From Hoeflea sp. YIM 152468 (GTDB lineage Bacteria > Pseudomonadota > Alphaproteobacteria > Rhizobiales > Rhizobiaceae), in NCBI RefSeq assembly GCF_029210485.1, contig NZ_JARGET010000038.1:62001-126000 (forward strand): 64,000 nucleotides of DNA, read 5' to 3'. Every line of letters starts with the position of its first letter. Positions within the stretch are counted from its first letter, which is position 1. Positions 25,105-48,596 of the stretch are shown here, piece by piece. Below the pieces are notes generated by a model, which saw only the letters and a program-made list of their open reading frames with translations, ran no database searches and had not been told where the DNA came from. Both the position numbers and the translations under genes were made by a program.

Positions 25105-25124
25105 TCTCCAAACCGGGCCCAGGC

Positions 25125-25859: not shown

Positions 25860-25924
25860 GGCTGGTTCTCGCTTGTGGTCTGAGTTTCATCGTCTGACTG
25901 ACCCATAGAAGGTTTATGCCATAT

Positions 25925-25957: not shown

Positions 25958-26058
25958 CTGTATTCATCTTCAGTGCGGCCTGTATTTTCACATGGCTTGG
26001 GAACTACTTCAGGAGAATGCAGAGCGTCGCGACCATAAAATTTTTCTGGGAGGAAAAA

Positions 26059-27069: not shown

Positions 27070-27096
27070 GCTCCGGCACGCTTGGACAGGCAAAAT

Positions 27097-27122
27097 GCGG
27101 CGAGCCCTTTGGGGCTCGTCGC
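27097..27122 (+). promoter_or_regulatory. Stem-loop between TRAP binding-protein and permease genes
   Basis: GCGGCGAGCCC (27097-27107) and GGGCTCGTCGC (27112-27122) pair over 11 bp with one G-T, 4-base loop, no T-tract. It is in the 95-base gap, a position that often sets the binding protein to permease ratio. Confidence 0.6.
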
Positions 27123-27164
27123 GTGGCATAATGGTAGCTTCGCAAGGGGTGGGGGCGGCAATCA

Positions 27165-27977: not shown

Positions 27978-27981
27978 ACCG

Positions 27982-29571: not shown

Positions 29572-29776
29572 GAAAGACCGGATTTCCCTGCCGAACGGTG
29601 TCGGCGAAAATGCTGCCGGCACCGCTCACAACCGGGTGCGATTGCTCTGACCGCGCCGTGCTTGCGCCCTGGCTCTGGTCACGAGCACTCACACGCCGGG
29701 GTCGCCCATCGTTATCTTGAAGCTGCACGGCCAGGCTCAGGAACATGGCGTTCTCGACCGCTCTCGGGATCGCAGT

Positions 29777-31576
29777 CTAATGATTGTCGCGAGGCCGCGA
29801 TTTCTGTGCAATAGCCTGAAATTCCGGCGCACCACGCAGCACCATGCCGTCCGAGAACGGTTCAACCAGATCACGGAAATACTTCTGCCAGGGTGACTGG
29901 CTCTGAGGTATCGGATAGCCGCCGGCCGAAGCAAGATCAGCAGCTCTTTGCGCCCATTCCGCTTCCGGCACCAATGCCTCAACACTGCAGGTGGTCAGGT
30001 CGATGCGGATGGAGTCGCCGGATTTGAGCAAGGCCAGCCCACCACCGGCTGCAGCCTCGGGCGAGGCATTGAGAATGGACGGCGATGCAGATGTGCCTGA
30101 TTGCCGCCCATCCCCAATGCAGGGCAAGGAGGTTATGCCCTTTTTCAGCAGGTAACCGGGGGGCCGCATGTTCACCACTTCCGCCCCTCCGGGATAGCCC
30201 AGAGGGCCGGCCCCGCGCATGACCAGGATGCAATTTTCGTCCACCTCAAGCGCCGGATCATCGATTGTGCTGTTGTATTGTTCCGGTCCGTCGAAAACGA
30301 TTGCCCGCCCGACAAAGGCATCCGGATGCTTCTCGCTCAACAAATAGCGTTGCCGGAATTCCGGCGAAATCACCGATGTCTTCATCATGGCGCTATCAAA
30401 CAGATTGCCCTTCATATTGAGAAACCCGGCGTTTGCCAGCATGGGTTTTCCCACCGTGAGAATGACCTCTGCGTTCTCGCTGCGGCGGTGGCCGCAATTC
30501 TCGCCGATCGGTCGTCCGTTGACAGTGACCGCATCCGGGTTCGGCAACAGTTTCGCTTCCATCAATTCTCCGACAACCGCCGGAACACCGCCTGCGCGGT
30601 GGAAATCCTCGCCAAGATAGGCACCGGCAGGCTGCATGTTGGTGAGCAAGGGGATGTGATAACCAAGCGCCTGCCAGTCATCATTGGACAACGGAACTCC
30701 CACATGCCGGGCGACCGCATTGAGGTGGATCGGCGCATTGGTTGAGCCACCCAGCGCCGAATTGACCACAATGGCGTTCTCAAATGCAGCGCGGGTCATG
30801 ACATCGGAAGGCTTGAGATCCTCCCACACCATCTCGACGATGCGCCGGCCGGTGGAATAGGCCATTTGCCCCCGCTCGCGGTAGGGAGCGGGGATCGCGG
30901 CGGATCCGGGCAGTTGCATGCCCAAGGCTTCCGCCAGAGAGTTCATGGTCGAGGCGGTTCCCATGGTATTGCAGTAGCCGACCGATGGCGCGGATGAGGT
31001 GACCAGGTCGGCAAACTGCTCGTCATCGATCTTGCCTTCCGCATGCAGCTCCCGGGCTTTCCAGATGATGGTGCCCGATCCGGTGCGTTCATTGCGGAAA
31101 TAGCCATTCAGCATCGGCCCGACCGAGAATGCGATAGCCGGAATGTTGACCGTGGCGGCAGCCATCAGCAGCGCCGGGGTGGTCTTGTCACAGCCGATGG
31201 TGAGCACAACACCATCCATCGGATAGCCGAAGAGCGCCTCAACCAGTCCCAGATAGGCGAGGTTCCGGTCGAGCATCGCAGTCGGGCGTTTGCCGGTTTC
31301 CTGTATCGGATGCACCGGAATTTCAAATGGCACCCCGCCGCCGGCAATGATGCCATCCCGGACCCGCTTTGCCAGTTCCACATGATGGCGGTTGCACGGA
31401 GACAGGTCCGATCCGGTTTGAGCAATCCCGATAATCGGCTTGCCTGACTGCAATTCGGCGCGGGTCAAACCATAATTGACATAGCGCTCGACATAGAGCG
31501 CCGTCATTTCGGGATTGTCAGGGTTGGAGAACCAGAGCCTTGAACGCAACTCGTCAGCTGTTTTCCGATTGGACAT
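29777..31576 (-). CDS. IlvD/Edd-family dehydratase, D-xylonate dehydratase-like
   Basis: 599 residues from ATG 31576, which has GAGGAG 6 bases upstream; the longer frame has no such site. It matches the sugar-acid branch (Caulobacter XylD type): [27 protein letters not shown] and [12 protein letters not shown] contain the cysteines expected for an Fe-S cluster. C-terminal blocks [17 protein letters not shown] and [13 protein letters not shown] are also typical. It dehydrates an aldonate to a 2-keto-3-deoxy acid. It follows a sugar ABC transporter on the same strand. The exact substrate (xylonate, arabonate, galactonate or other) is undecided. Confidence 0.88.
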
Positions 31577-31689
31577 TTCATCTCCTCTTTCGCCCGCTGT
31601 TTGAGGTCGCGGGGACCCTTGCTGTTGTTTCAAGACCAGCGAACCGGTTTCGCCTTAGCTGTCAGCAACGGCCGGCCTGGCGACCGGCC

Positions 31690-32694
31690 TCAGGATTGCA
31701 CCTTCGCTCCCCGTGCATAAAGCAACAGCATTCCAATGATGACGACGCCGAAGACGATGTTGCGGAAAACGTCAGCGGGCAGCTTGATGCCAAACTCGGC
31801 AAAATAGACCTGTGGCTGCAGCACCGACAGGATCGACTGCAGGAGCGTGATCAGAATCACGCCGGCGACCGTGCCCATATACCGGCCTCGGCCGCCGAGC
31901 ACATTGGTGCCGCCCAGAACGATGGCGGCCACGGTCGGCAAGAGATAGACATCCCCCATGGCCTGATAGGACCGGTTGGCCCAGCCGGACAGAAGGATTC
32001 CGCCGGCGGCGGCACACGCGCCTGAAAACACGAAACAGATGACAAGAACCCGGCGGGTATTGACGCCGGAGAGGAAAACCGCCCGTTCGGTGTTTCCGAT
32101 CGCGTAGATCTGCCGCCCAAGCGTCGTCCGCGTCAGCACGAAGACGGTCGCTGCGCCAAGCAGGATCCAGATCAGCAACGGATTGGGAACGCCCGGAACC
32201 AGGTGCCCCACCGCAAGCTCCCGCATAAAGGGCGTGCCGCTGTCCTGCGGCGCGAAACCTCCGGTGTGATAGACCATCACGCCCTGCGCCACCGCGTTCA
32301 TGCCGAGTGTGAAGATCATTGCCGGTGCGCGCAGATAGGCAACCCCGATCCCGTTGATAAGGCCGACCGTCATCCCGCAGGCGATGCCGAAGGGGACCGC
32401 CAGAGGCACGCCCAGCTCCGGTCCGAGAATGCCGCTCGCTCCCGTGGCCATCATACCGCCGATCGAAATGGTCCACGGAATCGAGAGATCGATGTGGCCC
32501 AGAAGAATGACCATCATCATGCCGGTCGCGATGACGCCCAGAAAGGACGCCACCTGAAGCTGCTGAACCAGATAGGTGGCCGACAGGAAATTCGGTTCGG
32601 CTATCGCACCGACTCCCAGCAGCAGGATGATGCAGCCAAAGGCAATTGTTGTTGCCTTGTCGAGTGGCTTGATGGATTTTGTCATGCCGGTCAT
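31690..32694 (-). CDS. Sugar ABC transporter permease, RbsC/YjfF type
   Basis: 334 residues, 8-10 membrane segments. It carries the BPD_transp_2 pattern GRQIYAIGNTERAVFLSGV and VLGGTNVLGGRGRYMGTVAG. It is the second permease of the CUT2-type importer and follows the first by 13 bases. It lies 113 bases before the dehydratase start, consistent with one transcript. Confidence 0.9.
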   Translation of the reverse strand: MTGMTKSIKPLDKATTIAFGCIILLLGVGAIAEPNFLSATYLVQQLQVASFLGVIATGMMMVILLGHIDLSIPWTISIGGMMATGASGILGPELGVPLAVPFGIACGMTVGLINGIGVAYLRAPAMIFTLGMNAVAQGVMVYHTGGFAPQDSGTPFMRELAVGHLVPGVPNPLLIWILLGAATVFVLTRTTLGRQIYAIGNTERAVFLSGVNTRRVLVICFVFSGACAAAGGILLSGWANRSYQAMGDVYLLPTVAAIVLGGTNVLGGRGRYMGTVAGVILITLLQSILSVLQPQVYFAEFGIKLPADVFRNIVFGVVIIGMLLLYARGAKVQS

Positions 32695-32707
32695 TGCGCT
32701 GAGTTCC

Positions 32708-33733
32708 TTACCGGTAGAGGTCGAGTTTGTTCTTGACCCGCAGAATTCTCAGCGAGCCGATCGACACCGCGAACAGCAGGACAATGCCGACGAACAACGG
32801 CTGCAGCACCGGATTGATGTCAAACACGATCAGCAGATCGCCAACGGTACGCATCACGAACGCACCGAATATGGAGCCAACGGCACTGCCGACGCCTCCA
32901 AACAGCGATGTTCCGCCAATCACCACGGCACCGATGGAATTGAGAGTGTAATCGTTGGCAAGCGAAGCTTTGGCCGCGCCGGAATAGGTGATGCAGGTGA
33001 GAAGAATACCGGCAATCGCCGCAAACAAACCGGCCAGCGTGTAGGCCAGCAGCCGCGCGCGCGCTACAGGCACGCCCGACATGTAGGCTGCCTGTTCGGA
33101 CGATCCGATCGCATAGGCCCCGCGCCCGAGCACGGACCGGCGGTAAGGCATCCAGATCAACAGCACAACGGCGATCAACAGGATGACGGTTGACGGCACC
33201 CCGGCCCAGGAACGGGTCATCAGATCGGCAAACTCGAAATTGACCGAACCGCCGGGCTGCGGACGGATAGCCAGTGAACATCCGAAATAAACCGCACCCG
33301 TGGCAAGCGTGACAATGATCGGCTGCAGCCGGCCGTACACAACGATCACGCCGTTGATGAAGCCACAGAGCAGACCAACCCCGAGCACAAGCAAAATCCC
33401 GAAAAACGCCGAGACCGGGCCGCCGACGACAACCACCGACGCCAGGCAGTTGGTCAACACAAAAATCATTCCCACCGACAGGTCGAGTCCGCCGGTGATC
33501 ACCGGCAGGGTTTGCGCCATGGCAACGAGCGCGAGCAGCGCCCCCTTGTTGGCTGCGGTGTTGATGATGTTGGCCGTCAGTCCGACATTCAGTTTCCAGC
33601 CGTAGACAAGGAACATGACGGCAAAGATCGCAACCGCGAGCAGCAGGCCACGCTGGGCCAGCAGCCAGTGGCTGAAATTGTCACGGGCACGCCCGGCGGG
33701 CGCTGCGGCTTGAGTTGAGGGTACCACACTCAT
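32708..33733 (-). CDS. Sugar ABC transporter permease, YtfT/RbsC type
   Basis: 341 residues, multiple membrane helices. The family loop is GRGAYAIGSSEQAAYMSGV and the late block is VVIGGTSLFGGVGSAVGS. It overlaps the end of the ATPase gene by four bases (coupled translation). It is a component of a galactofuranose/ribose-type CUT2 importer. Confidence 0.9.
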   Translation of the reverse strand: MSVVPSTQAAAPAGRARDNFSHWLLAQRGLLLAVAIFAVMFLVYGWKLNVGLTANIINTAANKGALLALVAMAQTLPVITGGLDLSVGMIFVLTNCLASVVVVGGPVSAFFGILLVLGVGLLCGFINGVIVVYGRLQPIIVTLATGAVYFGCSLAIRPQPGGSVNFEFADLMTRSWAGVPSTVILLIAVVLLIWMPYRRSVLGRGAYAIGSSEQAAYMSGVPVARARLLAYTLAGLFAAIAGILLTCITYSGAAKASLANDYTLNSIGAVVIGGTSLFGGVGSAVGSIFGAFVMRTVGDLLIVFDINPVLQPLFVGIVLLFAVSIGSLRILRVKNKLDLYR

Positions 33734-35277
33734 TGAACGGTCTCCGGCAAATCCCTGGTGTTTGTGATGTTGAGTGCCGCAGCAATCAGGTTGCGTTCGG
33801 TGAGCCGGTCACCGGCCAAGGTTTCGATGACAGTGCCATCGTAAAGCACCAGAACCCGGTCACAGCAGCCGATGAGTTCGTCATAATCGGTGGAGTAGAA
33901 CAGGATTGCCGCACCGCTTTCGGCCAGACGCCGGAGCAACTGGTAGATTTCCTGCTTCGTGCCCACGTCGATCCCCCGGGTGGGGTCGTTGAGCAGGATG
34001 ATGCGCGGCTTGTTCATCAGCCATTTGCCGATGACGATCTTCTGCTGGTTGCCGCCCGAGAGGGCTGCCACCGGGCCGTCAATACCGTCGGATCTGATTT
34101 TCAACAGCTCGACCATTTCCGTGATTGCTGCTTCTTCGGCCGACCGGTCGACCAGACCCCATTTGCTCATCCGGTCGACGGCGGCGAAGGTGAGGTTCTC
34201 CCGCACGGTCATGGGCAGCATCAACCCTTCATGCTTGCGGTCCTCGGGAATGAGCGCCATCCCGACAGTGTCCGACTTGGCGTGCTGCGGACTGGTGATA
34301 TCGACCGCTTCGCCGGCAATCCTGATTGTGCCGGTGGTGCCGATCAGCGTGCCGAACAGGGCAAGCAGCAATTGGCGCTGTCCCTGTCCATCAAGGCCGC
34401 CCAACCCGACCACTTCACCGGGCCGGAGTTCCAGATTGATATTGTTCAACTCCCGCTGCCAGGAGAGGTTCTCGACCTTGAGAACCGGTTCGCTATCGGG
34501 TTTCGCCCTGGTCAGCGGCGGAAAAGCGTTCTGGTATTCCCGGCCAATCATCATTTCCACCATTGCATTGTCGGTCTTGCTGCCGGCGGTGAAAGTTTCA
34601 ACATGCTGGCCATTGCGGAACACAGTGCAGTCATCCGCAAGCTCGGCGATCTCATGCATCCGGTGGGAGATGTAGACGACTGCCATCCCCTCCTCGCGCA
34701 GGCGCTTGAGCATGGCGAAGACCTTTGCCACATCCGCCGCAGTGAGCGCGGACGTGGCTTCATCAAGGATCAGCAGCTTTGGTTCGCGTGCCATCGCCTT
34801 GGCGATCTCCACCATCTGCCGGCGCGACAGCGGCAGGTCGCGTACGGTTGCATTCGGGTGGATATCCTCGCCTCCGACCACGGCCAGCGCGGCTTCGGCG
34901 CGCTTTCGCTGGGCGCGATAGTCGATTTGGCCGAACCGCATCGGCGGATTTGTAATGCAGATATTGTCGGCAACCGTCAGATCTGGCAGCAGTGAAAGCT
35001 CCTGGAAAATACAGGCAATCCCGGCCTCGTTGGCCGCGGCGGGCCGGGCAAAGACCTGCGGCCTGCCATCGAGCAGAATACGTCCCGCATTGGGCTGAAC
35101 CACTCCGGACAGCACCTTGATCAGCGTGGATTTGCCCGCGCCGTTTTCCCCCAGAAGGGCATGTATTCGTCCCCGGTCGCATTCAAAACGGACATTCTCA
35201 AGCGCTCGGACGCCGCCGTAGTGCTTGGTAATCCCTTCCATGCGCAGCAAGGGTGTAGTTTCACCTGCCATCGCCAA
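33730..35277 (-). CDS. Sugar ABC transporter ATP-binding protein, CUT2 type
   Basis: 515 residues with two fused nucleotide-binding domains as in RbsA/YtfR. The first has a canonical Walker A (GENGAGKST, about residue 43) and the Walker B block LLILDEATSAL. The second has the degenerate Walker A usual for this family (GLGGLDGQGQRQ) and LSGGNQQK, then LNDPTRGIDVG. It energises the two downstream permeases. Confidence 0.92.
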   Translation of the reverse strand: MAMAGETTPLLRMEGITKHYGGVRALENVRFECDRGRIHALLGENGAGKSTLIKVLSGVVQPNAGRILLDGRPQVFARPAAANEAGIACIFQELSLLPDLTVADNICITNPPMRFGQIDYRAQRKRAEAALAVVGGEDIHPNATVRDLPLSRRQMVEIAKAMAREPKLLILDEATSALTAADVAKVFAMLKRLREEGMAVVYISHRMHEIAELADDCTVFRNGQHVETFTAGSKTDNAMVEMMIGREYQNAFPPLTRAKPDSEPVLKVENLSWQRELNNINLELRPGEVVGLGGLDGQGQRQLLLALFGTLIGTTGTIRIAGEAVDITSPQHAKSDTVGMALIPEDRKHEGLMLPMTVRENLTFAAVDRMSKWGLVDRSAEEAAITEMVELLKIRSDGIDGPVAALSGGNQQKIVIGKWLMNKPRIILLNDPTRGIDVGTKQEIYQLLRRLAESGAAILFYSTDYDELIGCCDRVLVLYDGTVIETLAGDRLTERNLIAAALNITNTRDLPETVQ

Positions 35278-35324
35278 AGGTAGCTCCTGCCTTCACTCAA
35301 GTTTCTGTCGATTTACGCATTGTC

Positions 35325-35350
35325 GTGCCGCCGAGATGGTCCGGCGGCAC
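35325..35350 (-). promoter_or_regulatory. Stem-loop between sugar-binding-protein and ATPase genes
   Basis: GTGCCGCCG (35325-35333) and CGGCGGCAC (35342-35350) form a perfect 9-bp stem with an 8-base loop in the 92-base gap. Probable mRNA stabiliser after the binding-protein cistron. Confidence 0.6.
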
Positions 35351-35369
35351 TCCTTGGTCGCCCGTGCGG

Positions 35370-36488
35370 CTAGTTGTTGTCGCCGCTTTGCGACGAGATC
35401 TCTTCGTTGGTGAAGCCGATATTGCAGTCCGGAAAATTGTTGCCGGTAAACAGCGATCCGGGAAGATCCGGAAACACCTCCGAGCCCACCTTGTAGGGCG
35501 AGAACGAGATTGATGTCGGCAGCGAAATCGACTGCGGAATGACCTCACCCTTCAAAGCCGCAATCGCGGTCTTGATGGTGATCGCCGACTGCGCCGGACC
35601 GGTGCCGCCAGATTGGCAGACCATGCCCTTGTCGTGATACTCGTTGCACATCTGGCGAAAGGCGTTTTCATCTTCGCCGGACATGGGAACGATGAACTTG
35701 CCGGCATCGATCATCGCCTGGGCCGGTCCTTGCGAGCCGCCCTGAACGTAGATGCCGTCAAACATGCCGCCCGCTGCGATCGCGTCGGCGGTTACCTTCT
35801 GTCCGTCGCCAGGCGCCCAGTTGCCGACAACTTCGGTGACTTCCACATTGCGGCCGGAAGCATCGAGCACTTCCTGAAAGCCTGTGGCGCGGGCAATATC
35901 GACCGGCTGACCTGCGGGTCCGCGAACGAACAGGAATTTGGCCGGATCAGCGTCCGTCTTCGACAGCAGGAACTCTCCTGCGGTGCGTCCCAGGCCGACC
36001 TGATCGACATTGATCTGGATGTTCATCGGATCATCGATGACATTGTCGAAGGAAAGCACCACCACACCAGCGGCATTGGCCTTGCGCACCACCGAGCCGA
36101 AGGCGGAAGTGTTGTTGGCGTTGACGATGATGGCATCAAAGCCCTGATCGATGAAGTTGTTGGCTGCGGCAATCTGGGCGGCAATGTCCTCGCCGACCGA
36201 TACGACCTTGAACTCCTCGAGGTCCGCGGCGACTTCCGGCTGGTTGGCAAAGGCCTTTGCAACGCGGATCATCTGCACGCGCCAGTCATTGGCGATGAAA
36301 CCGTTGACCAGAGCGACCTTGTAGGGGCCTTCTTTAGCCGGCCACTGGAAGTATTGGGTGTCTTCCGACAGCGGAGCGAAGCACTGCGGATCGGCACCCG
36401 GGCCATCAACGACCTCCGGCGCGGCGAGTGCGAGGCTGGTCGACAGCATAAAGCCGGCGGCTGCGGTTATCAGTGTTTGATGTTTCAT
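35370..36488 (-). CDS. Sugar ABC transporter substrate-binding protein
   Basis: 372 residues from ATG 36488 (GGGAGGAAG upstream); the longer frame lacks a signal peptide at its start. A Sec signal (MKHQTLITAAAGFMLSTSLA, cut near LAA-APE) precedes a periplasmic-binding type 1 domain with YKVALVNGFIANDWRVQMI and GFDAIIVNANNTSA. It is the first gene of the CUT2 operon. The sugar is unknown. Confidence 0.9.
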   Translation of the reverse strand: MKHQTLITAAAGFMLSTSLALAAPEVVDGPGADPQCFAPLSEDTQYFQWPAKEGPYKVALVNGFIANDWRVQMIRVAKAFANQPEVAADLEEFKVVSVGEDIAAQIAAANNFIDQGFDAIIVNANNTSAFGSVVRKANAAGVVVLSFDNVIDDPMNIQINVDQVGLGRTAGEFLLSKTDADPAKFLFVRGPAGQPVDIARATGFQEVLDASGRNVEVTEVVGNWAPGDGQKVTADAIAAGGMFDGIYVQGGSQGPAQAMIDAGKFIVPMSGEDENAFRQMCNEYHDKGMVCQSGGTGPAQSAITIKTAIAALKGEVIPQSISLPTSISFSPYKVGSEVFPDLPGSLFTGNNFPDCNIGFTNEEISSQSGDNN

Positions 36489-36602
36489 GGTCTTCCTCCC
36501 TTTGGCGCCCAACTGCGCCCTCCCTTGATGCCGCCTTCGGCGGCCACTTCCCCAACTCACCGTCTTGCCTCCCAACGCAACGGCAGAGCGAGCTCTTTAC
36601 GG

Positions 36603-38687: not shown

Positions 38688-39620
38688 ATGAAGTGCATTG
38701 AGACGAAGAATGGAACGCCTGTTTCGCGACTGGGATTTGGAGCCATGCAATTTGGCCGGACCGCGGATGAAAACGACGCGCGCGAGATGTTTGAGGCCTG
38801 CATTGGTGCCGGGATCAATCTCTTCGACACGGCTTACAGCTATACGGGCGGCGCCTCCGAGCAAATGCTGGGCAAACTGGCCGCCCCGATGGCCGATGAT
38901 GTCCTCGTCGCCACGAAGGCACCGAATGACCGCCCCGCGTCGTCAGACAATCTGCGGGCTTCCCATGAGCTAAGCTGCAAACGGTTGGGGGTCGACTGTA
39001 TCGATATCTACTATCTGCATCGGTTCGACCCCGAAACGGAGTTGGAGGAGACCTTTGGCACCCTGGCCGAGATGCAGTCTCGGGGCCTGATCCGCCACAT
39101 CGGGGTGTCCAATTTCGCGGCGTGGCAAATCATGAAGGCACAGGCAGTTTGTGCGACATTCGACACGCAGATCGACGTTTGCCAACCGATGTACAATCTT
39201 GTCAAACGGCAGGCAGAGGCCGAGATTCTGCCGGCCTGTGAAGATCAGGGCATCTCCGTCTGCCCCTATTCACCGCTGGGCGGCGGGTTGCTGACCGGCA
39301 AATACGCAGATGGGGCGGCGGGCCGGCTTAAAGATGATCGCACCTATGCGGCGCGCTATGCACAGTCGTGGATGCACGAAGCCGCCCGCGAGCTGCGCCA
39401 TCTGTCGGAACGTCTGGCGATCCCCGCTGCGACGCTCGCCGTGGCATGGGTGGCCCGGCATCCGGCGGTCACCTCGACGTTGATCTCCGCCCGCAATGCA
39501 TCTCAATTGCAGCCGTCGCTGGATGCGATCGATTTCGAATTGTCGGACGATCTCCATGCGCAGGTCACCCGGCTCAGCCCCACTCCGGCGCCTGCAACCG
39601 ACCGGTCGGAAGAAGCCTGA
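38688..39620 (+). CDS. Aldo/keto reductase
   Basis: 310 residues, AKR TIM-barrel. The catalytic Asp-Tyr pair is in FDTAYSY (about residue 45-51), Lys in VATKAP and His in YYLHRFD. The C-terminal cofactor region includes LISARNASQL. It is NADPH-dependent and acts on aldehydes or sugars; the substrate is unknown. It lies 173 bases after the GntR gene and is convergent with the otnC/otnK operon. Confidence 0.88.
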   Translation: MKCIETKNGTPVSRLGFGAMQFGRTADENDAREMFEACIGAGINLFDTAYSYTGGASEQMLGKLAAPMADDVLVATKAPNDRPASSDNLRASHELSCKRLGVDCIDIYYLHRFDPETELEETFGTLAEMQSRGLIRHIGVSNFAAWQIMKAQAVCATFDTQIDVCQPMYNLVKRQAEAEILPACEDQGISVCPYSPLGGGLLTGKYADGAAGRLKDDRTYAARYAQSWMHEAARELRHLSERLAIPAATLAVAWVARHPAVTSTLISARNASQLQPSLDAIDFELSDDLHAQVTRLSPTPAPATDRSEEA

Positions 39621-39818: not shown

Positions 39819-40463
39819 CTACCAGTCTACGTCGAATGTCTTAACGAGGCCGCCGAGCTGTGCTTCCGTCAACAGGTGTGGCGACAGACCGCGACACAGC
39901 AGGGTGAGCTTGGCGGCCTCCTCCAGTTCCTCCATGGCATAGACTGCGGCATCGAGATCCTTGCCGCAGACGACCGGCCCGTGATTGGCCAGCAGCACGG
40001 CAGACCGTTTGCCAAGCAGGCCGCGCACGGCGTCACCCATGGCCGGATCGCCGGGCATGAAATAGGGCAGCAGCTTGACGCGCCCCAGCTTCATGACGCT
40101 GTAGGCAGTGATCGGCGGCAGCACGTTTTCCGGATCGGTTTCGGGCAGCACCGACAACACCACCGAGTAACACGAATGCAGGTGCACGACGGCGCCGGCG
40201 CCATGCCGGGTGTCGTAAAAAGCGCTGTGCAGCGGCACTTCCTTGGTCGGCGGGTCTCCACTGATCAATCGGCCTGACGCATCCAGCAGGCTGATCCGCG
40301 CCGGATCGATGAATCCCATGCTGGCCCCGGTTGGCGTGACCAGAACGCGGCCATCGGAAAGCCGCGCGGAAATATTGCCGGACGAACCGTTTGTCAGACC
40401 GCGCTCAAAAATCGACTTTGCCCATCTGGCGATATCGTCGCGGATCCGGGTTTCCTCAGTCAT
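39819..40463 (-). CDS. otnC: 3-oxo-tetronate 4-phosphate decarboxylase-like class II aldolase
   Basis: 214 residues of the class II aldolase/adducin fold. NGSSGNISARL binds phosphate, HLHSCYSV and the later ANHG supply zinc-binding His. OtnC decarboxylates 3-oxo-tetronate 4-phosphate to dihydroxyacetone phosphate in threonate/erythronate pathways. Its start overlaps the stop of the DUF1537 kinase gene by four bases, the pairing expected for OtnK/OtnC. Confidence 0.85.
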   Translation of the reverse strand: MTEETRIRDDIARWAKSIFERGLTNGSSGNISARLSDGRVLVTPTGASMGFIDPARISLLDASGRLISGDPPTKEVPLHSAFYDTRHGAGAVVHLHSCYSVVLSVLPETDPENVLPPITAYSVMKLGRVKLLPYFMPGDPAMGDAVRGLLGKRSAVLLANHGPVVCGKDLDAAVYAMEELEEAAKLTLLCRGLSPHLLTEAQLGGLVKTFDVDW

Positions 40464-41689
40464 CGGTCCTCCGAGAGCATCTTGATGGCATGGGCGAAAA
40501 AATTCTCATCGCCGAAATTGCCGGACTTGAGCGCGATCACCAGCGCGCGGTCATCCACACGCAAGGCCGGCACGCCGGGCGCGATCCGTGTGCCGACGGT
40601 CAATTGGCGGGCTCCCAACCCGGCGACGACGGCACCTGAGGTTTCGCCGCCGGCGGACACGATCTGAGATATTCCGCGACGAGACAGTTCTGCAGCGAGT
40701 TCGCGAAACAAGCCCTCGATCCGGTCTGCGACAATCGTCTGACCGTATTTCTGTTGCGCGGCCTTGACCGTTTCGGGGTCCGCCGACGAGTAGACCAGTG
40801 GCGCCTTGTGCGCCTCGGCCATCACCCAGTCAGCGACGCTTTCGGCGCTGTGCTTACCCGCCATCACGGCATCGGCTGTCAGTTCCAGAGATGGCGCGAC
40901 TTTGCTGTATGCGGCGATCTGCGCCCGCGTCGCCACCGAACAGGATCCCGACAGGACTGCCCCCTTGCCGGGATGACCGGTCCAGGGGGGAGATGCAGAG
41001 CGAAACCCGAAATTCCCGGGCAGGCCGAGCGCGATACCGGAACCGCCACACAGCAATTTGCGGTGTTTTGCAGCAGCGCCGATGGTCACAAGATCATCAT
41101 CCTCGATCGCATCCACAATGAACATTGCCTTGCCGGAGGTCAGCATTTCGGCGACTGCGCCCGTCCCCCTGGCAACGACCTGGGCCGGCACATGCGCCAC
41201 CGGCCACCGGGTTTGCCGGGCGAGAACGCGGCGCAGATCAGACTCACGCATCGGGGTGAGCGGATGGTTCTGCATGCCGCTCTCACTGAGCAATCTGTCG
41301 CCCACGAACAGATGGCCCTGATATACGCTGCGGCCATTTTCCGGGAAGGCCGGGCAAACGATGACAGCGGTCTCGCCGAGCCGTTCGGCGAGTGCCTCGG
41401 TGACTTGCCCGATATTGCCCTGATCGGTGGAGTCGAACGTGGAGCAGACCTTGAAGATGATCTGTTCAGCGCCCTGCCCTGTGAGCCAGTCGCACGCCTG
41501 CAACGATTGGCGGATTGCCTGTTCGAGCGGCGCGGTGCGCGATTTGAGTGAAATCACCGCGGCATCGCAACCGGTGACCGGATGTTCCGGCAGGCCGGCC
41601 AGAAGCAGGGTTTTCATGCCGGCTTCGGCAAGCGTCAGCGCAATGTCCGAGGCGCCGGTAAAATCATCCGCAATCACGCCGATCTTCAC
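40460..41689 (-). CDS. otnK: 3-oxo-tetronate kinase (DUF1537 family)
   Basis: 409 residues. N-terminal MKIGVIADDFTGASDIALTL is the DUF1537 signature; the C-terminal nucleotide-binding part has VLSGSCSVATR and SAGGETSGAVV. It phosphorylates 3-oxo-tetronate at O4 before OtnC acts. It overlaps both neighbours by four bases, so translation with the upstream hydrolase gene is coupled. D-threonate kinases and other acid sugar kinases share the family, but the OtnC partner favours OtnK. Confidence 0.87.
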   Translation of the reverse strand: MKIGVIADDFTGASDIALTLAEAGMKTLLLAGLPEHPVTGCDAAVISLKSRTAPLEQAIRQSLQACDWLTGQGAEQIIFKVCSTFDSTDQGNIGQVTEALAERLGETAVIVCPAFPENGRSVYQGHLFVGDRLLSESGMQNHPLTPMRESDLRRVLARQTRWPVAHVPAQVVARGTGAVAEMLTSGKAMFIVDAIEDDDLVTIGAAAKHRKLLCGGSGIALGLPGNFGFRSASPPWTGHPGKGAVLSGSCSVATRAQIAAYSKVAPSLELTADAVMAGKHSAESVADWVMAEAHKAPLVYSSADPETVKAAQQKYGQTIVADRIEGLFRELAAELSRRGISQIVSAGGETSGAVVAGLGARQLTVGTRIAPGVPALRVDDRALVIALKSGNFGDENFFAHAIKMLSEDR

Positions 41690-42480
41690 AGTCTGAATTC
41701 CTTTGTCGGTCCGGTGTCGAGCCGCACGGCATAGTCCGGCCCGGCCGACTCGAAAAGATTCATCACCAGAGGATCGTGGCCGGGAACAATCAGGCTGCGA
41801 TCGCTGGCAAGCGCGGATATCCGATCGAACCCATCAAGCATGTTTTGCAGATCAACCACGATCGGAAACGGCTTTCTGGCAAACACGTTTTCATAATAAT
41901 GCGCGGCGTCAGACGCCAGACAGAGCCACCCGGACATTGTGCGCACCCGGACGGCTTGAAGCCCGCGCGAATGGCCGCCGATGCAATGCACCGTCACCCC
42001 ATCGGCGACTTCCCCATCGCCATCATGGAACATCACACGACCGGAATAGACCCGCCGGACCATCTCGCAGACATGATCGGCGGAAAACGGCATCCGCAGC
42101 GTATCGTGACACATGCAGGGCCCGGTGGCGTATGCCATTTCGGCGGATTGCAGATGAATGGTGGCATTGGGAAACTGGTTGAGACCACCGGCATGATCGT
42201 AATGCAGATGGGTGACGATCAGGGTGGTGATGTCTTCCGGCTTGAGGCCGATCCCCTGCAAGGCGGCTGCCGGCTCCCGGATAATCGGCCGATCCCGGTG
42301 CCGCGCTTCAGCTTCGTCATAGCCGGTATCGACCACAATGACCTGGTCACCGCATTTGAGCACCCAGATGAAATAATCCATCGCATGCGGCTGGTCATGA
42401 TTGTCGTCGAAGAGGAAGCTGTCCTTGCGCGTCCGCGAATTGCGGTCGGCATATTTGAGGGCGTAGACTTCCCAGATCAT
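41686..42480 (-). CDS. Metallo-beta-lactamase-fold hydrolase, AHL-lactonase-like
   Basis: 264 residues from ATG 42480, which overlaps the ABM gene stop (ATGA). The zinc motif THLHYDHAGG gives His91, His93, Asp95 and His96; further ligands lie in GGHSRG and DAAHYY, then VPGHDP. It resembles N-acyl-homoserine lactonases (AttM/AiiB). In this operon with sugar-acid kinase and decarboxylase the likely role is opening a sugar lactone, which is inference. Quorum quenching is the alternative. Confidence 0.83.
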   Translation of the reverse strand: MIWEVYALKYADRNSRTRKDSFLFDDNHDQPHAMDYFIWVLKCGDQVIVVDTGYDEAEARHRDRPIIREPAAALQGIGLKPEDITTLIVTHLHYDHAGGLNQFPNATIHLQSAEMAYATGPCMCHDTLRMPFSADHVCEMVRRVYSGRVMFHDGDGEVADGVTVHCIGGHSRGLQAVRVRTMSGWLCLASDAAHYYENVFARKPFPIVVDLQNMLDGFDRISALASDRSLIVPGHDPLVMNLFESAGPDYAVRLDTGPTKEFRL

Positions 42481-42767
42481 TGATGCACGCGGGCGAAGGT
42501 GCGCACGTCCTTGGACTCGATCATTTGCGAAACGGCGGCGTCGAACTTCTTGAAATGGGGCGTCTGCCTGTGTGCATCGAAGCCGGCAAGATCTGAGTAG
42601 ATCTCGTAGAGGAAAACACTGTCGGGCTGCGCCGCATCGGTGCAGACATCGAACTGATGGCAAGCGGGCTCATCGCGCAGCGAGGCCTGAGCATTTTCGA
42701 GCATCAGCGGCATGAACTCGTTGATCATGCCGGCCTTTATCTTGAACGTGACAACAACAGCAAACAT
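42477..42767 (-). CDS. Antibiotic-biosynthesis-monooxygenase (ABM) domain protein, YgiN-like
   Basis: 96 residues from ATG 42765-42767 (GTGAGG ribosome site), chosen because the product is a complete ABM ferredoxin-like dimer domain: VTFKIKAG at the start, ACHQFDVCTDAAQPDSVFLYE in pieces around residue 36-55, and HFKKFDAAV near the end. Members act as quinol monooxygenases, isomerases or have unknown roles. It sits between TRAP permease and hydrolase genes with overlap downstream. Confidence 0.82.
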   Translation of the reverse strand: MFAVVVTFKIKAGMINEFMPLMLENAQASLRDEPACHQFDVCTDAAQPDSVFLYEIYSDLAGFDAHRQTPHFKKFDAAVSQMIESKDVRTFARVHQ

Positions 42768-42778
42768 ACCAACCTCAC

Positions 42779-44062
42779 TTAACGAAACAGATAGACCAAT
42801 GTCATCGACACGGCGGGAACATAGGTGACCAGCAACAGCGCGCCGATGGCGGCAAAGTACAGCATGCCCATTCTGCGCGCGATGGAAAGCACCCCGACGC
42901 CGGAGATGCGCGAGGCGACATAGAGGGTGGCTCCGACCGGCGGAGTAAACAACCCGACCGCCACATTGCAGGTCATGATCACGCCCAGATGCACCGGATC
43001 GATGCCGAAGGCCTGCGCGGTCGGCAGGAACAGCGGCGCGGTCAACAGGATCGCCGGCACGGGATCGAGAACCAGGCCGAGGATCAGCAGCACCAGATTG
43101 ACCAGGATGAGAAAGACCCAGGGGCTTGATGACAGGTCCTGCACAAAGGCAACCAGCACCTGCGGCATCTGCTCGAGCGTGATCAACCAGCCGAGAACCG
43201 TGGTCGCGCCGATCACCACCATCACCGTGGCACTGGTGACAAAGGCATCGACCATCAATTGCGGCAGGTCCTTGATCCGGAAATCCCGGTAGACGAAGAT
43301 CGTGACCACCAGCCCGTAGACCACGGCCAGCGCAGCCGCTTCGGTGGGGGTGACCCAGCCGCTGAAAATTCCACCGAGAATGAGGATCGGCATGAACAGT
43401 GCGGGTGCGGTGCCGACAAACGAACTCCACAGTTCCGCCCGTGTGGTGGTGCGGCCACCAGGATCGCAGCCGGTTGATTTGCCGACATAATAGCAGACCA
43501 GCATGAAGGCGAGGCCGAAGATGATGCCAGGAATCGTTCCGGCCAGAAACAGATCGGCCACCGAGACATTGCCGACAAATCCGTAGATCAGCATCGGGAT
43601 CGATGGCGGGATGATGATGCCGATGGTCCCGGCGGCAGCGACCAGCCCGGCGGCAAACGCCTTGTCATAGCCTTCCTTGGCCATGTTCTTGATCATCACC
43701 GAACCGATTGCGGCGCTGTCGGCAATCGCCGACCCGGAGATGCCGCCGAAGATCATCGAAGCGCCGACCACCACCATGCCCAGCCCGCCCGGCATGAAGC
43801 CGAAGGCCGCCCTGGCGAAGCCGATGATGCGCATGCCGACACCGCCGCGGCTCATCAGTTCACCCGCCACGATGAACAGCGGAATGGCGAGAAAATGGTT
43901 GGGTTCGACCCCGCCGATGAAATTGAGATAGAGCGCCTGCAGCGGATAGCCCAAATCAAACACGATGATCGGCAGAACGGCTGTGATCAGGATCGCCCAG
44001 ACCAGCGGCACGCCGACAAACACGGTGACGAGAAACACCGCGACAACGAAAAGCAGGATCAC
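42779..44062 (-). CDS. TRAP transporter large permease (DctM)
   Basis: 427 residues, standard length, about 12 membrane segments. Motifs GTIGIIIPPSIPMLIYG and LGLVLDPVPAILL are typical. Its start overlaps the small permease stop by four bases. It imports the acid or sugar acid used by the following enzymes. Confidence 0.93.
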   Translation of the reverse strand: MILLFVVAVFLVTVFVGVPLVWAILITAVLPIIVFDLGYPLQALYLNFIGGVEPNHFLAIPLFIVAGELMSRGGVGMRIIGFARAAFGFMPGGLGMVVVGASMIFGGISGSAIADSAAIGSVMIKNMAKEGYDKAFAAGLVAAAGTIGIIIPPSIPMLIYGFVGNVSVADLFLAGTIPGIIFGLAFMLVCYYVGKSTGCDPGGRTTTRAELWSSFVGTAPALFMPILILGGIFSGWVTPTEAAALAVVYGLVVTIFVYRDFRIKDLPQLMVDAFVTSATVMVVIGATTVLGWLITLEQMPQVLVAFVQDLSSSPWVFLILVNLVLLILGLVLDPVPAILLTAPLFLPTAQAFGIDPVHLGVIMTCNVAVGLFTPPVGATLYVASRISGVGVLSIARRMGMLYFAAIGALLLVTYVPAVSMTLVYLFR

Positions 44063-44607
44063 AGCACGGCTCCCGTATCGGCGCCATCGACATGGTGGGC
44101 AACCGTCAGGCCATCGCCCCCCGGTGGCGAACGCCAGTCATGCACCATGTTGAAGGTATGGAAAATCAGCGACAGCGCGATGCCCACAGGCATCGAGGCA
44201 TAAAGAAAACCGACCGGCCAATACAGCACCGTCGTCCGCTGCGCCCAGGTATGGCTAGAGATCGAATAGCCCTCGACAATCAGGCTCAGCATCATCACCA
44301 GCACAATGAAATTGATCGCAGCGGAGAGGAAGCGGTGGAGTGCTTTTGGCACGAACAGCTCGACGATCTCGGTGACGCGCATATGTGCGCCGCGGGCGAT
44401 TGCCGCTGCACAGCCGAGAAAGGTCGTCCAGAGCAGAAGGAAGGCGGTGACTTCCAGCGACCAGGCAAGATCAAATCCCGCCGCGCCCCTAAGTGTTGCG
44501 TTGACAAAAACAAGCGTCACGATTGATAGACCGCCAAGCACCAGACACAGATCGATCAAGCGACTTATAACCCGTAATGCAAGCGGATAGATTGCCCTGT
44601 AATCCAT
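44059..44607 (-). CDS. TRAP transporter small permease (DctQ)
   Basis: 182 residues with four membrane helices; the conserved core is WSLEVTAFLLLWTTFLGCAA followed by RGAHMRV. It works with the DctM protein encoded next. It lies 67 bases after the binding-protein gene across a stem-loop. Confidence 0.9.
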   Translation of the reverse strand: MDYRAIYPLALRVISRLIDLCLVLGGLSIVTLVFVNATLRGAAGFDLAWSLEVTAFLLLWTTFLGCAAAIARGAHMRVTEIVELFVPKALHRFLSAAINFIVLVMMLSLIVEGYSISSHTWAQRTTVLYWPVGFLYASMPVGIALSLIFHTFNMVHDWRSPPGGDGLTVAHHVDGADTGAVL

Positions 44608-44674: not shown

Positions 44675-45679
44675 CTATTTCGCCGGCATCATCTCACGGA
44701 TCTTGGCGGCATCGGCCAGCACCTTGTCAACGGCTTCCGCGCCATAGACACCGCGCGCCTGGTCATAGACGGATGCGACGGCTTCCCGGAACGGCCCAAT
44801 CTCGGGCGTCGACACCTTGGCGCCCTCTGCAGTCATTTCCTCAAGCTGCGCATTGACCGAGTTCTTGACCAAGTCGCGGCTGAAGGCAGAGGATTCGGCT
44901 GCGGCTTTCCTGACCGCTTCCTTGTCGGCGTCCGAAAAGGCCTGCCAGGTCTTCTCCGAAATCGTCAACGGCAACGGGCTGTAGACATGCCGGGTCAGCG
45001 TGATGTGGGGCGCGACCTCGTAGAAGCGGAGCGACTTGATCGTATCAACCGGATTCTCCTGACCATCGACGGTGCCCTGCTGGATCGCAAGATACACGTC
45101 GGTGATCGGCATCACCACGGTCTGAAAGCCGACCGCTTCCATGGTCCAACGGATCATGTCGTTGGGAAACACGCGCATTTTCTTGCCTGCCGCATCGGCC
45201 GGAGATGTCAGCGGATCTTTGGTGGTGTAACTGCGGAACCCCGCCTCCCAAGTGGCCAGCACCCGGAAACCAACTTCAGGCAGCTTGTCGAATTCGCCCC
45301 TGAGCCATTCGGAATTATCATAGAATTCCCAGCCCTGCTCGTAGGTGTCGACCAGGAACGGCATTGCGGTGAGATTGAGGGTGGTCAGGTGAGTGGCGTA
45401 GGATCCGGTCGCAGAGACGGTGAAATCGACACCGCCAAGCTGCAGTTGCTCGATCGCCTTCGGGTCGTTGGCAAGCTGGCCAGCAGGGAATATGCGAATC
45501 TCGTAGCGGCCCTCGGTATATTCCTTCACCTTCTCGGCAAAAACCTCGGCAGCCGCCTGCCGGGATCCGCCAGGATTGTCGGTGTGGCTGAACTTCAGGA
45601 CCGTTTGGGCATTGGCGCCGGCCCCCAGCGCGCCCATTAGCGCGGTTGTCACGGTCAACGTCTTGAGCAGAGTGTTCAT
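44675..45679 (-). CDS. TRAP transporter substrate-binding protein (DctP)
   Basis: 334 residues. Sec signal MNTLLKTLTVTTALMGALGA with cleavage near ANA-QTV (about 24). Mature part: LKFSHTDNPGG at the start, AGKKMRVFPND with the substrate-binding arginine, and QQGTVDGQENPVDTI, all characteristic of DctP proteins. GGGAGGA precedes the ATG. It is divergent from the isopropylmalate-dehydrogenase-like gene. Confidence 0.93.
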   Translation of the reverse strand: MNTLLKTLTVTTALMGALGAGANAQTVLKFSHTDNPGGSRQAAAEVFAEKVKEYTEGRYEIRIFPAGQLANDPKAIEQLQLGGVDFTVSATGSYATHLTTLNLTAMPFLVDTYEQGWEFYDNSEWLRGEFDKLPEVGFRVLATWEAGFRSYTTKDPLTSPADAAGKKMRVFPNDMIRWTMEAVGFQTVVMPITDVYLAIQQGTVDGQENPVDTIKSLRFYEVAPHITLTRHVYSPLPLTISEKTWQAFSDADKEAVRKAAAESSAFSRDLVKNSVNAQLEEMTAEGAKVSTPEIGPFREAVASVYDQARGVYGAEAVDKVLADAAKIREMMPAK

Positions 45680-45806: not shown

Positions 45807-46901
45807 ATGGTCCAGTCATTTGAAATTGCGGTGTTTGAAGGTGACGGCATCGGGCCCGAAATCACTGCCCCTACGATACGCATTCTTGAAGCCCTTGCAA
45901 AACAGCAGCAGGATTACGGACTGGCCTTTTCCAAAGCCCCGGCCGGCGCCGCTCATTATGCGCAAACCGGAGAGTCGCTGCCAGTGGCGTCAATGGAGAC
46001 GGCACGGAACGCCGATGCGATCTTGCTGGCGGCCATGGGGCTGCCCTCCGTTCGCTATCAGGACGGAACCGAAATTTCGCCGCAGCTGGATCTCAGGATC
46101 GAGCTCGACCTGTTTGCCGGGGTTCGCCCTGTCCGGGTGGTGCAGGGTCAACCGACCCCGCTCAAGCTTTCAGGCGGCCAGTCGATCGACTTCGTCCTGA
46201 TCCGGGAAAGCACGGAAGGCCTGTTTTTCTCCATGGGCAAAGGGGCGGTCAGCAAGGATGAGGCACGCGAGACGCTTCTGATCACGCGCAAGACCAGTGA
46301 AAAACTGTTCCGGTTCGCATTTGATTATGCCCAGCAACGCAAGGCCCTGGGAACCGGCAAGGGCCGTGTGACCTGCGTCGACAAAGCCAATGTGTTTCGC
46401 GCCTTTGCCTTTTTCCGCGAGATCTTCGATGGCGTGGCCAAGGAGTATTCTCACCTTATCGCAGACCATGCCTATGTCGACGCGACCGCACTCTGGATGG
46501 TGGAAAAGCCTTGGCTGTTTGATGTGCTGGTCACCGAAAACATGTTTGGCGACATCCTGTCCGATCTTGGCGCCGGCATCATGGGCGGGCTTGGACTGGC
46601 GCCGTCTGCCGATATCGGGCTTAATCACGCGGTGTTCCAACCGTGTCACGGATCAGCCCCCGACATTGCCGGAAAGGGCGTGGCCAATCCATTCGCCATG
46701 ATCCTGTCGGCCGCCATGATGCTTGACTGGCTCGGCACGAAGCACAACATCGAAACGATGGTGTCTGATGGGGCGAAATTGCGCGACGCGGTGTATCAGG
46801 TGGTTGCCGATGGCAGCGTCCTGACCCGCGATCTTGGCGGAACCAGCGGCACCGAAGCCGCCGCCGAGGCGGTTCTGGAACAGATAACAGCAAGGGCGTG
46901 A
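45807..46901 (+). CDS. Isocitrate/isopropylmalate dehydrogenase family protein
   Basis: 364 residues from ATG 45807 (AGGGG upstream). Family features: FEGDGIGPEIT at the N-terminus, LRIELDLFAGVRPV, RESTEGLFF, the lysine in CVDKANV, and the metal aspartates in ENMFGDILSDLGAG, then GSAPDIAGKG. Members oxidise 2-hydroxy acids with a neighbouring carboxylate, often decarboxylating (isopropylmalate, tartrate, isocitrate). Location divergent from the TRAP-otn operon suggests a sugar-acid or tartrate-like substrate rather than leucine synthesis. Confidence 0.87.
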   Translation: MVQSFEIAVFEGDGIGPEITAPTIRILEALAKQQQDYGLAFSKAPAGAAHYAQTGESLPVASMETARNADAILLAAMGLPSVRYQDGTEISPQLDLRIELDLFAGVRPVRVVQGQPTPLKLSGGQSIDFVLIRESTEGLFFSMGKGAVSKDEARETLLITRKTSEKLFRFAFDYAQQRKALGTGKGRVTCVDKANVFRAFAFFREIFDGVAKEYSHLIADHAYVDATALWMVEKPWLFDVLVTENMFGDILSDLGAGIMGGLGLAPSADIGLNHAVFQPCHGSAPDIAGKGVANPFAMILSAAMMLDWLGTKHNIETMVSDGAKLRDAVYQVVADGSVLTRDLGGTSGTEAAAEAVLEQITARA

Positions 46902-47920
46902 TCTTGGACAATACCATACGGGTCGCCTGTCTTGGGGCGGGATATTTCAGCCAGTTTCACTTTGACGCCTGGGAGCGGATTGAAGCGGTGGAGCTGGTCG
47001 GCATTGCCAACAGGAACATCGAGAAGGCCCGGCAGACCGGTTACCCGGCATTCAGCGATCTGGGGCACATGCTCGAAGCGACGACGCCGGACCTGCTCGA
47101 CATCATCACGCCGCCCGAGACCCATCTGGGTGCAATCAAGGCGGCTCTGGAGCACGGCGTCACGGCGATCATATGCCAGAAGCCGTTCTGCACTTCACTT
47201 GATGAAGCTCGGACGGCGGTCTCTCTCGCTGCGGACAAAGGCGTTCCGCTGATCGTGCACGAGAATTTCCGCTTCCAGCCCTGGTATCGGGAGATGGCTC
47301 GCGCTCTTGCCGCCGGCGACATCGGTGATGTTCATCAACTGACTTTCCGGTTGCGGACCGGCGATGGACAAGGCCCTGATGCCTATCTCTCGCGGCAGCC
47401 CTATTTTCAGAAGATGGAGCGCTTTCTCGTCCACGAGACCGCAGTGCACTGGATCGACACGTTCCGATTCCTGCTCGGAGATATCCAGGCAGTCTATGCT
47501 GATCTGAGAAAAATGAACCCGGTGATTGCCGGAGAGGATGCCGGCTACATCATTTTCGATTTCGATCACGGCGTCCGGGCCATCTTCGACGGCAACCGGC
47601 ATCTTGATCACGCATCCGAAAACACCCGCACCACACTGGGTGAAGCGCTGCTGGAAGGCACCACCGGGACCATTACTCTTGCCGGCAACGGCGCCCTCTA
47701 TCTGCGCTCTTTCGGTGAGACCGCGACGCGGACGCTGCTGGAGCCAAAAGACTGGCGCGGCTTTGCCGGTGATTGCGTGTTTGCGCTTCAGCGTCATGTC
47801 GTCGAGGGCCTGCTGGAAAGAAGACCGTTCGAAAACACTGCGGCCGATTATCTTCGTGTTATAGAGGTGGAAGAAGCGATCTACCGGTCAGCAAGCGAGG
47901 GTCGCAAACAAGGGGTGTAG
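46898..47920 (+). CDS. Gfo/Idh/MocA-family oxidoreductase
   Basis: 340 residues. It begins at GTG 46898, overlapping the previous stop (GTGA); a TTG at 46904 is an alternative. The N-terminal Rossmann motif is VACLGAGYFSQFH; the EKP-type motif appears as CQKPFC and the catalytic region has HETAVHWIDTFR. Such enzymes oxidise sugars, inositols or sugar derivatives with NAD(P). It could make a lactone for the MBL-fold hydrolase of the divergent operon. Confidence 0.87.
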   Translation: MILDNTIRVACLGAGYFSQFHFDAWERIEAVELVGIANRNIEKARQTGYPAFSDLGHMLEATTPDLLDIITPPETHLGAIKAALEHGVTAIICQKPFCTSLDEARTAVSLAADKGVPLIVHENFRFQPWYREMARALAAGDIGDVHQLTFRLRTGDGQGPDAYLSRQPYFQKMERFLVHETAVHWIDTFRFLLGDIQAVYADLRKMNPVIAGEDAGYIIFDFDHGVRAIFDGNRHLDHASENTRTTLGEALLEGTTGTITLAGNGALYLRSFGETATRTLLEPKDWRGFAGDCVFALQRHVVEGLLERRPFENTAADYLRVIEVEEAIYRSASEGRKQGV

Positions 47921-47921
47921 G

Positions 47922-48596
47922 GTGTCGGAGGAAGCAAAGGCAAAATCTCAGAGTATTCGGGCGGTGGATGCTCTCAGAGCGTTGATTTTTGCCGGCGAAT
48001 TGCCTCCAGGGTCAGATCACCTTGAAAGCGAACTCGCGGAAAAGCTCGGCATGTCGAGAACACCGGTGCGCGAGGCGACGCTGGTGCTCGAATCGCAGGG
48101 TCTGCTGGAAGTCAGACCGCGCAAGGGCGTCCGGATATCAGCCCTGTCGGCCGACGACATGCGCGAGATCTACGAGGTGCTGACCGAGCTTGAAAGCCTC
48201 GCCGCCTCGCTCGCTGCTGACGCCGGTTATTCGGAACAGGAATTGTCCCGGCTGAAGACCGCGATTGTCGAGATGGAAGCCAGCGTGGCAGCCAATGACC
48301 GCGAAGGCTGGGCCCGCGCCGACGCCGCCTTCCATGACGAACTTGTCCGCCTGGGCGGCAACAAGCGCATCCAGACCATCGTTTCAAATTTCAACGACCA
48401 GGTCCGCCGGGCACGGGCCTTGACGCTGCATATGCGGCCAATGCCCAGCAAATCCAATCAGGACCATCGCGCGCTCTATGAGGCTATCGCCAAGGGTGAT
48501 TCCAAGGCCGCCCGCCAGGTGCACTGGATGCACAGGACAGAGGCCAAGGATATGCTGATCAATCTGCTCCACCAGCACGGGCTTCGCCGGGTTTGA
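47922..48596 (+). CDS. GntR-family regulator, FCD subfamily
   Basis: 224 residues from GTG 47922, one base after the preceding stop. Winged helix: SDHLESELAEKLGMSRTPVR and a wing with RPRKGVRIS; FCD domain follows with FHDELVRLGGN and DHRALYEAI. It is third gene of the dehydrogenase operon, so it probably regulates this operon and the divergent TRAP-otn operon through the palindrome at 45717. Confidence 0.89.
   Translation: MSEEAKAKSQSIRAVDALRALIFAGELPPGSDHLESELAEKLGMSRTPVREATLVLESQGLLEVRPRKGVRISALSADDMREIYEVLTELESLAASLAADAGYSEQELSRLKTAIVEMEASVAANDREGWARADAAFHDELVRLGGNKRIQTIVSNFNDQVRRARALTLHMRPMPSKSNQDHRALYEAIAKGDSKAARQVHWMHRTEAKDMLINLLHQHGLRRV

Follow-up and report, generated by a model that had tools for sequence, protein, structure and literature searches.

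Gene Content of the Locus

The window, by which we mean the whole 64 kb stretch of Hoeflea sp. YIM 152468 DNA that was analysed, carries an ABM gene on the reverse strand (42477–42767), whose product is here a proposed LsrG-like isomerase/tautomerase. The preliminary description had placed a 96-residue ABM protein, overlapping the start of a hydrolase gene, inside a sugar-acid operon, and both points hold. The 96-residue open reading frame is real, its product matches PF03992 in Pfam with 67.6 bits (E = 1.1e-18, profile positions 1–76 of 78, cut-off 23.1), and the neighbouring sequences confirm the sugar-acid operon around it, which has a clear end. The ATG start of the ABM gene, with a GAGG site ahead of it, lies 11 nt past the stop of the TRAP large-permease gene, and the gene ends in ATGA, the ATG of which is the start of the MBL-fold hydrolase gene (a 4-nt overlap).

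The operon members that accompany the ABM gene, all on the reverse strand, are the TRAP transporter genes, the MBL-fold hydrolase gene, otnK and otnC. The hydrolase (41686–42480) is lactonase-like, with an HLHYDH motif and a PF00753 match of 70.7 bits, and every score that it obtained with AHL-lactonase models was below cut-off. OtnK, a 3-oxo-tetronate kinase (40460–41689), scores 519.9 bits with NF043035 (cut-off 350), and OtnC (39819–40463) scores 296.6 bits with NF043034 (cut-off 250) and is of the Aldolase_II kind (PF00596). The D-apiose pathway was considered for the kinase and rejected, as the OiaK model gave 106.4 bits against a cut-off of 700. The transporter comprises the large permease DctM (42779–44062; TIGR00786, 402.9 bits), the small permease DctQ (44059–44607), named from its position and a 240-bit match to a gene so annotated in Sulfitobacter (L077), and the solute-binding protein DctP (44675–45679; PF03480, 244 bits). 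Facing the operon on the forward strand are genes for a member of the isocitrate/isopropylmalate dehydrogenase family, hereafter IsoDH (45807–46901; PF00180, 308.6 bits), a Gfo/Idh/MocA oxidoreductase (46898–47920; PF01408, 74.3 bits) and a GntR-family regulator (47922–48596), whose family name is taken from its Sulfitobacter counterpart.

Among the operon genes identified by Pfam and NCBIfam scans there is no quinone or aromatic-ring enzyme. OtnI is absent from the 64 kb window and LtnD from the operon; the closest relative of LtnD that the window encodes (310 bits) lies far from the operon, at 18011–19072. An aldo/keto reductase gene (38688–39620) is convergent with the operon, and a weaker relative of it lies within the corresponding module at two other loci (L026, L138). 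The window also holds a second sugar-acid island (24307–36575), with an SDR, a GntR regulator, an IlvD/Edd-type dehydratase (PRK13017, 990.5 bits) and a ribose-type ABC binding protein, and with TRAP-like and ABC transporter genes, recognised by eye, between them.

Family, Fold and Conserved Residues of the ABM Protein

The ABM reading frame evolves as a protein under purifying selection, since in comparisons with three relatives dN (0.14–0.20) is well below dS (0.81–1.35) and third codon positions change most. Its nearest relatives in named records include proteins from Hoeflea sp. (81%) and Hoeflea alexandrii (79%). The genome of Hoeflea sp. YIM 152468 encodes four ABM proteins; a second one (L001, on contig C15) reaches 118.2 of the 135 bits of the LsrG model and so is close to LsrG, with RbsD-like and ABC ATPase matches as neighbours.

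The only NCBIfam match of the ABM protein in the operon is the LsrG isomerase NF007791, at 43.8 bits against an equivalog cut-off of 135, which it does not reach. LsrG is annotated as (4S)-4-hydroxy-5-phosphonooxypentane-2,3-dione isomerase, and the accessible part of one report describes it as the isomerase of a phosphorylated hydroxy-dione (PMC12274486). The ABM structure is predicted with high confidence (pLDDT 98.2). Among the best 50 of 1771 fold matches, the top PDB entries by E-value are two LsrG structures (3QMQ from E. coli and 2GFF from Y. pestis; TM 0.90–0.91); many other ABM structures are nearly equal to LsrG as matches, and 2omo has a slightly higher TM-score. The preliminary description had suggested comparing the predicted structure with L-rhamnose mutarotase (RhaM) and with ABM enzymes, and had seen a likeness to RhaM. 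The comparison places LsrG first by E-value, and the mutarotase likeness finds no support: Pfam returns ABM only, and RhaM does not appear among the best 50 of 1771 fold matches. What does stand is the preference for an isomerase over a quinol monooxygenase. We take this to be the better reading because LsrG is the sole NCBIfam match, because LsrG structures are the top folds, and because OtnK in this operon would have to be preceded by a carbonyl shift.

Across 87 rows of IsoDH-linked ABM proteins (80 distinct), the invariant residues include Ser29, Glu33, Cys36, Phe39, Asp40, Glu55, Tyr57, His66, His71 and Lys86. The same residues are also common in a set of 37 ABM proteins that have no IsoDH close by. 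This set is impure, since it includes the window's own ABM again as L003, along with proteins from several short or cut contigs in which IsoDH may lie beyond the end; from it only the LsrG and E. coli YgiN rows are relied on. Because these residues are shared outside the IsoDH context, they mark an LsrG-like branch and not the pathway discussed here.

Recurrence of the ABM, IsoDH and OtnK Grouping

We surveyed 137 OtnK loci, made up of 136 from one class-level and one phylum-level survey plus the window, each read for 8 kb to either side, or less near contig ends, and some of them near-identical (such as L163 and L166). An ABM protein above 80 bits is encoded at 10 of the 137, and an IsoDH of the same clade at all ten (11 of 137 overall). 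None of the ten has OtnI, which is found at 83 of the 137 loci overall (p = 5e-5, a value that, like the other p values of the survey, ignores shared ancestry, the ten loci representing seven family codes). LtnD above 350 bits is likewise found at none of the ten and at 65 of 137 overall, though two of the ten, L044 and the window, encode a more distant LtnD relative (310 bits). ABM matches of 32 and 35 bits at two OtnI loci (L111, L119) were not counted, and IsoDH relatives of 258–422 bits are present at three OtnI loci (L124, L159, L174). Absence of OtnI alone proves little, because 44 of the 137 loci have neither OtnI nor ABM.

The association is also seen at the level of whole genomes. Among 385 genomes, 13 have an ABM protein above 100 bits, and of these all 13 have IsoDH at an E-value of 1e-70 or better (38 of 385 overall) and 12 have OtnK (49 of 385 overall). 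When weaker ABM proteins are added, IsoDH is found in 17 of 24 genomes and OtnK in 19 of 24. The reverse association is looser, with 25 of the 38 IsoDH genomes lacking a strong ABM. In four genomes (G107, G182, G361, G160) the IsoDH relative has one in-frame stop, perhaps reflecting decaying genes or sequence errors.

A scan of genome contigs with an ABM alignment gave 230 loci, and the best 80 of these, a set biased to close kin by that choice, were read for their neighbours: 66 have the MBL-fold hydrolase, 65 the Gfo/Idh oxidoreductase, 64 IsoDH, 49 a match to the GntR regulator, 45 OtnK, 45 OtnC and 5 OtnI. Where OtnK is not nearby (35 of 80), it is present elsewhere in 21 of the 23 genomes examined. 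The usual core is IsoDH, ABM, OtnK and OtnC, with exceptions at L134, which has no OtnC nearby, and in a Marinovum stretch (L082), which has no OtnK. Gene order varies by lineage while the set is kept, for example ABM-IsoDH-OtnK-OtnC at L173, IsoDH-OtnK-OtnC-ABM at L064 (where the OtnC match is weak, 77 bits) and IsoDH-ABM-HAD-ALDH-OtnK-OtnC at the Agrobacterium and Rhizobium loci L081 and L086. The transporter also changes, from TRAP in the window to tripartite tricarboxylate in Marinovum and sugar ABC in Rhizobium and Agrobacterium, and in the latter two SDR, HAD and ALDH genes stand in place of the hydrolase and Gfo/Idh genes. Judged from these gene neighbourhoods, the grouping of ABM, IsoDH and OtnK is no accident of one genome.

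Some loci depart from this pattern. L138 has the module without an ABM gene within 8 kb, the four ABM genes of its genome lying on other contigs. A same-genus genome without OtnK encodes an ABM protein 71% identical to that of the window (L016:10001–10291), apart from any close IsoDH, and a tree of ABM proteins (96 columns, 112 rows) places it near the Hoeflea module ABMs, at a resolution too poor for counting gains. Another ABM protein, 54% identical to that of the window, is encoded among apparent housekeeping genes, as judged by eye.

The Tetronate Pathway and OtnI

According to the accessible part of a study of the L-threonate route, LtnD produces 2-oxo-threonate, OtnI converts this to 3-oxo-threonate, OtnK phosphorylates it and OtnC yields DHAP; the same source describes an OtnI-free bypass, whose OtnC is of another sort and carries an F_bP_aldolase domain, and assigns the Aldolase_II-type OtnC to the branch requiring isomerisation (PMC12540250). 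Because the window encodes an Aldolase_II-type OtnC, one would expect a 3-oxo substrate here.

From the counts at OtnK loci, the case that ABM simply replaces OtnI would be strong, but it is weakened by the genomes and loci that keep OtnI, and we do not adopt it. The genome of Hoeflea sp. YIM 152468 itself encodes an OtnI of 356.3 bits (cut-off 325) on another contig (L005:1492–2262, contig C5), next to genes judged by eye to encode a DapA-family protein and an MFS transporter. Of the 43 genomes with IsoDH and OtnK near ABM, 42 were searched, and 38 of these have OtnI-like proteins, above cut-off in 6. The five ABM loci with OtnI alongside are all from Roseobacter (L196, L199, L204, L219, L241). 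In genomes where ABM is unlinked, OtnI is found at 12 of the 20 OtnK loci read (20 of 24 places). Since OtnI or an OtnI-like protein is kept in this genome and in most of the module genomes searched, ABM is not needed merely for want of OtnI: it must act on another substrate or with other stereochemistry, unless an enediol is what it works on directly.

Substitution of the Catalytic Tyr by Phe in the Dehydrogenase

Phe140 of IsoDH (codon 46224–46226; numbered from the ATG at 45807, and F141 if counted from 45804) aligns with Tyr139 of T. thermophilus IPMDH. In each of the 91 module IsoDH rows (83 distinct) this catalytic-Tyr position is occupied by Phe; L138, with no ABM gene near it, also has Phe. 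Tyr is found in all 14 other rows covering the site, among them E. coli DmlA and LeuB (the LeuB row is partial, being cut by the end of the stretch, and L233 has no letter at the site). Since clade score, and not Tyr or Phe, decided which 91 rows were taken, the Phe could go back to a single ancestral change. All 91 also retain one Lys, three Asp and three Arg, and we take these positions to be the catalytic Lys and Asp and the three carboxylate-binding Arg of IPMDH. The structure of IsoDH is predicted with a pLDDT of 92.5.

A simulation study of human IDH1 treats Tyr139 as less essential and points out that the mutant reaction persists in a Y139D enzyme (PMC12200840). The Phe of IsoDH may therefore mean that an enediol is released, or simply that no decarboxylation takes place.

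Proposed Role of the ABM Protein

The explanation that we favour, and to which we would give about an even chance, is that ABM is an LsrG-like isomerase/tautomerase that turns the IsoDH product into 3-oxo-tetronate in a pathway for a four-carbon acid sugar. We propose this because the gene recurs across layouts, is uncharacterised and is kin to an isomerase of the same chemical type, and because OtnK wants 3-oxo-tetronate. IsoDH would oxidise a hydroxy acid at the carbon beside the carboxylate, whether or not CO2 is lost, and its product would be 2-oxo-tetronate or the 2,3-enediol of this compound; ABM would shift the carbonyl from C2 to C3 via the enediol, yielding 3-oxo-tetronate; OtnK would phosphorylate this, and OtnC would then decarboxylate the product to DHAP. 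The MBL-fold enzyme may open a lactone that is made or imported upstream, and the Gfo/Idh oxidoreductase may provide another oxidation. What the analysis shows is the genes, their repeated grouping, the family assignments, the LsrG-like fold and the Phe at the Tyr position; all of these reactions, and that of ABM most of all, are inferred, as is the starting substrate. Counting against the proposal are the retained OtnI, the isolated ABM of L016, locus L138, the 44 of 137 OtnK loci without either isomerase, the identity of only ~24% to LsrG and the missed LsrG cut-off, together with the 54% identical ABM among apparent housekeeping genes, the IsoDH relatives at the OtnI loci L124, L159 and L174, the 310-bit LtnD relatives and the weak ABM matches at L111 and L119.

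A bolder form of this proposal, which we hold only tentatively, is that IsoDH and ABM are halves of one reaction, with IsoDH handing an enediol to ABM as a dedicated tautomerase. IsoDH, having kept all that such a reaction requires, would then act on a branched hydroxy-diacid, for example a hydroxymethyl-tartrate, by oxidation and decarboxylation; lacking the Tyr, it could not reprotonate the enol, and ABM would place the proton so that 3-oxo-tetronate, not 2-oxo-tetronate, is formed.

A little less probable is a plainer arrangement in which IsoDH only dehydrogenates a tetronate to free 2-oxo-tetronate and ABM, as a second OtnI, carries out the OtnI reaction, perhaps on the other enantiomer. 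It fits this scheme that oxidation by members of the IsoDH family takes place beside a carboxylate, and so does the lack of OtnI at all ten ABM-bearing OtnK loci. However, in the loci and genomes with both ABM and OtnI the two would be redundant unless their stereochemistry differs, and the three Arg that presumably bind carboxylate are kept in every one of the 91 module IsoDH rows.

Unlikely, in our judgement, is a role one step earlier, with ABM as a mutarotase or lactone isomerase that prepares the substrate of the adjacent lactonase-like enzyme, a role close to that put forward in the preliminary description. The hydrolase gene directly follows ABM in 57 of the 80 ABM loci (the best 80 of 230) and is present in 66 of them, as this role would have it, but it is missing from the stretch read at five of the ten ABM-bearing OtnK loci (L044, L064, L065, L134, L173) as well as at L081 and L086, and the failure of RhaM to appear in Pfam or among the best 50 of 1771 fold matches tells against it too.

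Still more doubtful is that ABM uses O2 as a monooxygenase of quinols or aldehydes, or that it protects against reactive carbonyls. The family name points this way, relatives being called putative quinol monooxygenase in 27 of the 60 listed plasmid records, and so do the ABM copies outside the module and the ABM protein ArqI, which the accessible part of one report places within a glyoxal-induced operon (PMC12274486). Against this, the identified operon genes include no quinone or aromatic-ring enzyme, the window's ABM protein contains no tryptophan, and Asp40, Tyr54 and Tyr57 are unlike the residues of YgiN. That ABM is non-catalytic here, a binding or regulatory protein, as might be drawn from the accessible account of ArqI binding another enzyme and lowering quinolone-signal production (PMC12274486), is very improbable, since the never-varying polar residues Ser29, Glu33, Cys36, Asp40, Glu55, His66, His71 and Lys86 (87 rows, 80 distinct) suggest a conserved functional site.

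Should ABM turn out to isomerise tetronates, then many annotations in the ABM family mislead, LsrG is not alone among ABM proteins in being an isomerase, and a module of many marine and soil Alphaproteobacteria gains a testable pathway. If the two-halves reading is true, it would amount to a previously undescribed split oxidative decarboxylase/tautomerase that opens a new way into the 3-oxo-tetronate pathway. The replacement of Tyr by Phe, in a dehydrogenase family familiar from textbooks, itself offers a concrete hypothesis that is cheap to test.

Comparison With Known Systems

ABM isomerases and tetronate catabolism are both already known. No literature joining ABM with tetronate terms was found in a search for which subscription papers were mostly beyond reach, and the accessible portions of two pathway papers do not mention an antibiotic biosynthesis enzyme (PMC12506659; PMC10580937).

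Of the known ABM enzymes compared, YgiN, the E. coli quinol monooxygenase, shares the ABM fold (TM 0.78) and Glu33, Cys36, Glu55, His66 and His71, but it has Ala40, Ile54 and Trp57 where the window's ABM has Asp, Tyr and Tyr (a comparison by position, not of the established catalytic residues of YgiN), and its partner genes are unlike those described here. RhaM, the L-rhamnose mutarotase, is a small alpha+beta dimer acting on sugars, and its likeness to the window's ABM lies in these features. On the side of the dehydrogenase, the 3-isopropylmalate, tartrate and isocitrate dehydrogenases have the same Lys, three Asp and three Arg as IsoDH and differ from it in having Tyr, not Phe.

OtnI (YgbM) belongs to another family than ABM, the AP_endonuc_2/Hyi type, and is alike in that 3-oxo-tetronate, which feeds OtnK and OtnC, would be the product of ABM too. 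LsrG, at ~24% identity, has the same letter as the window's ABM at Ser29, Glu33, Phe39, Asp40, Tyr54, Glu55, Tyr57, His66 and His71 and differs at Cys36 and Lys86. Its partners in E. coli are LsrA, LsrC, LsrD, LsrB and LsrF, whereas those of the window's ABM are TRAP, the MBL-fold hydrolase, OtnK and OtnC, with IsoDH and Gfo/Idh opposite; the substrate of LsrG is phosphorylated, whereas a phosphorylated substrate is not expected for the window's ABM. The lsrG gene, like the ABM gene described here, lies in an operon for the uptake of a small sugar, and the carbonyl shift that we propose for ABM would be of the same kind as that carried out by LsrG.
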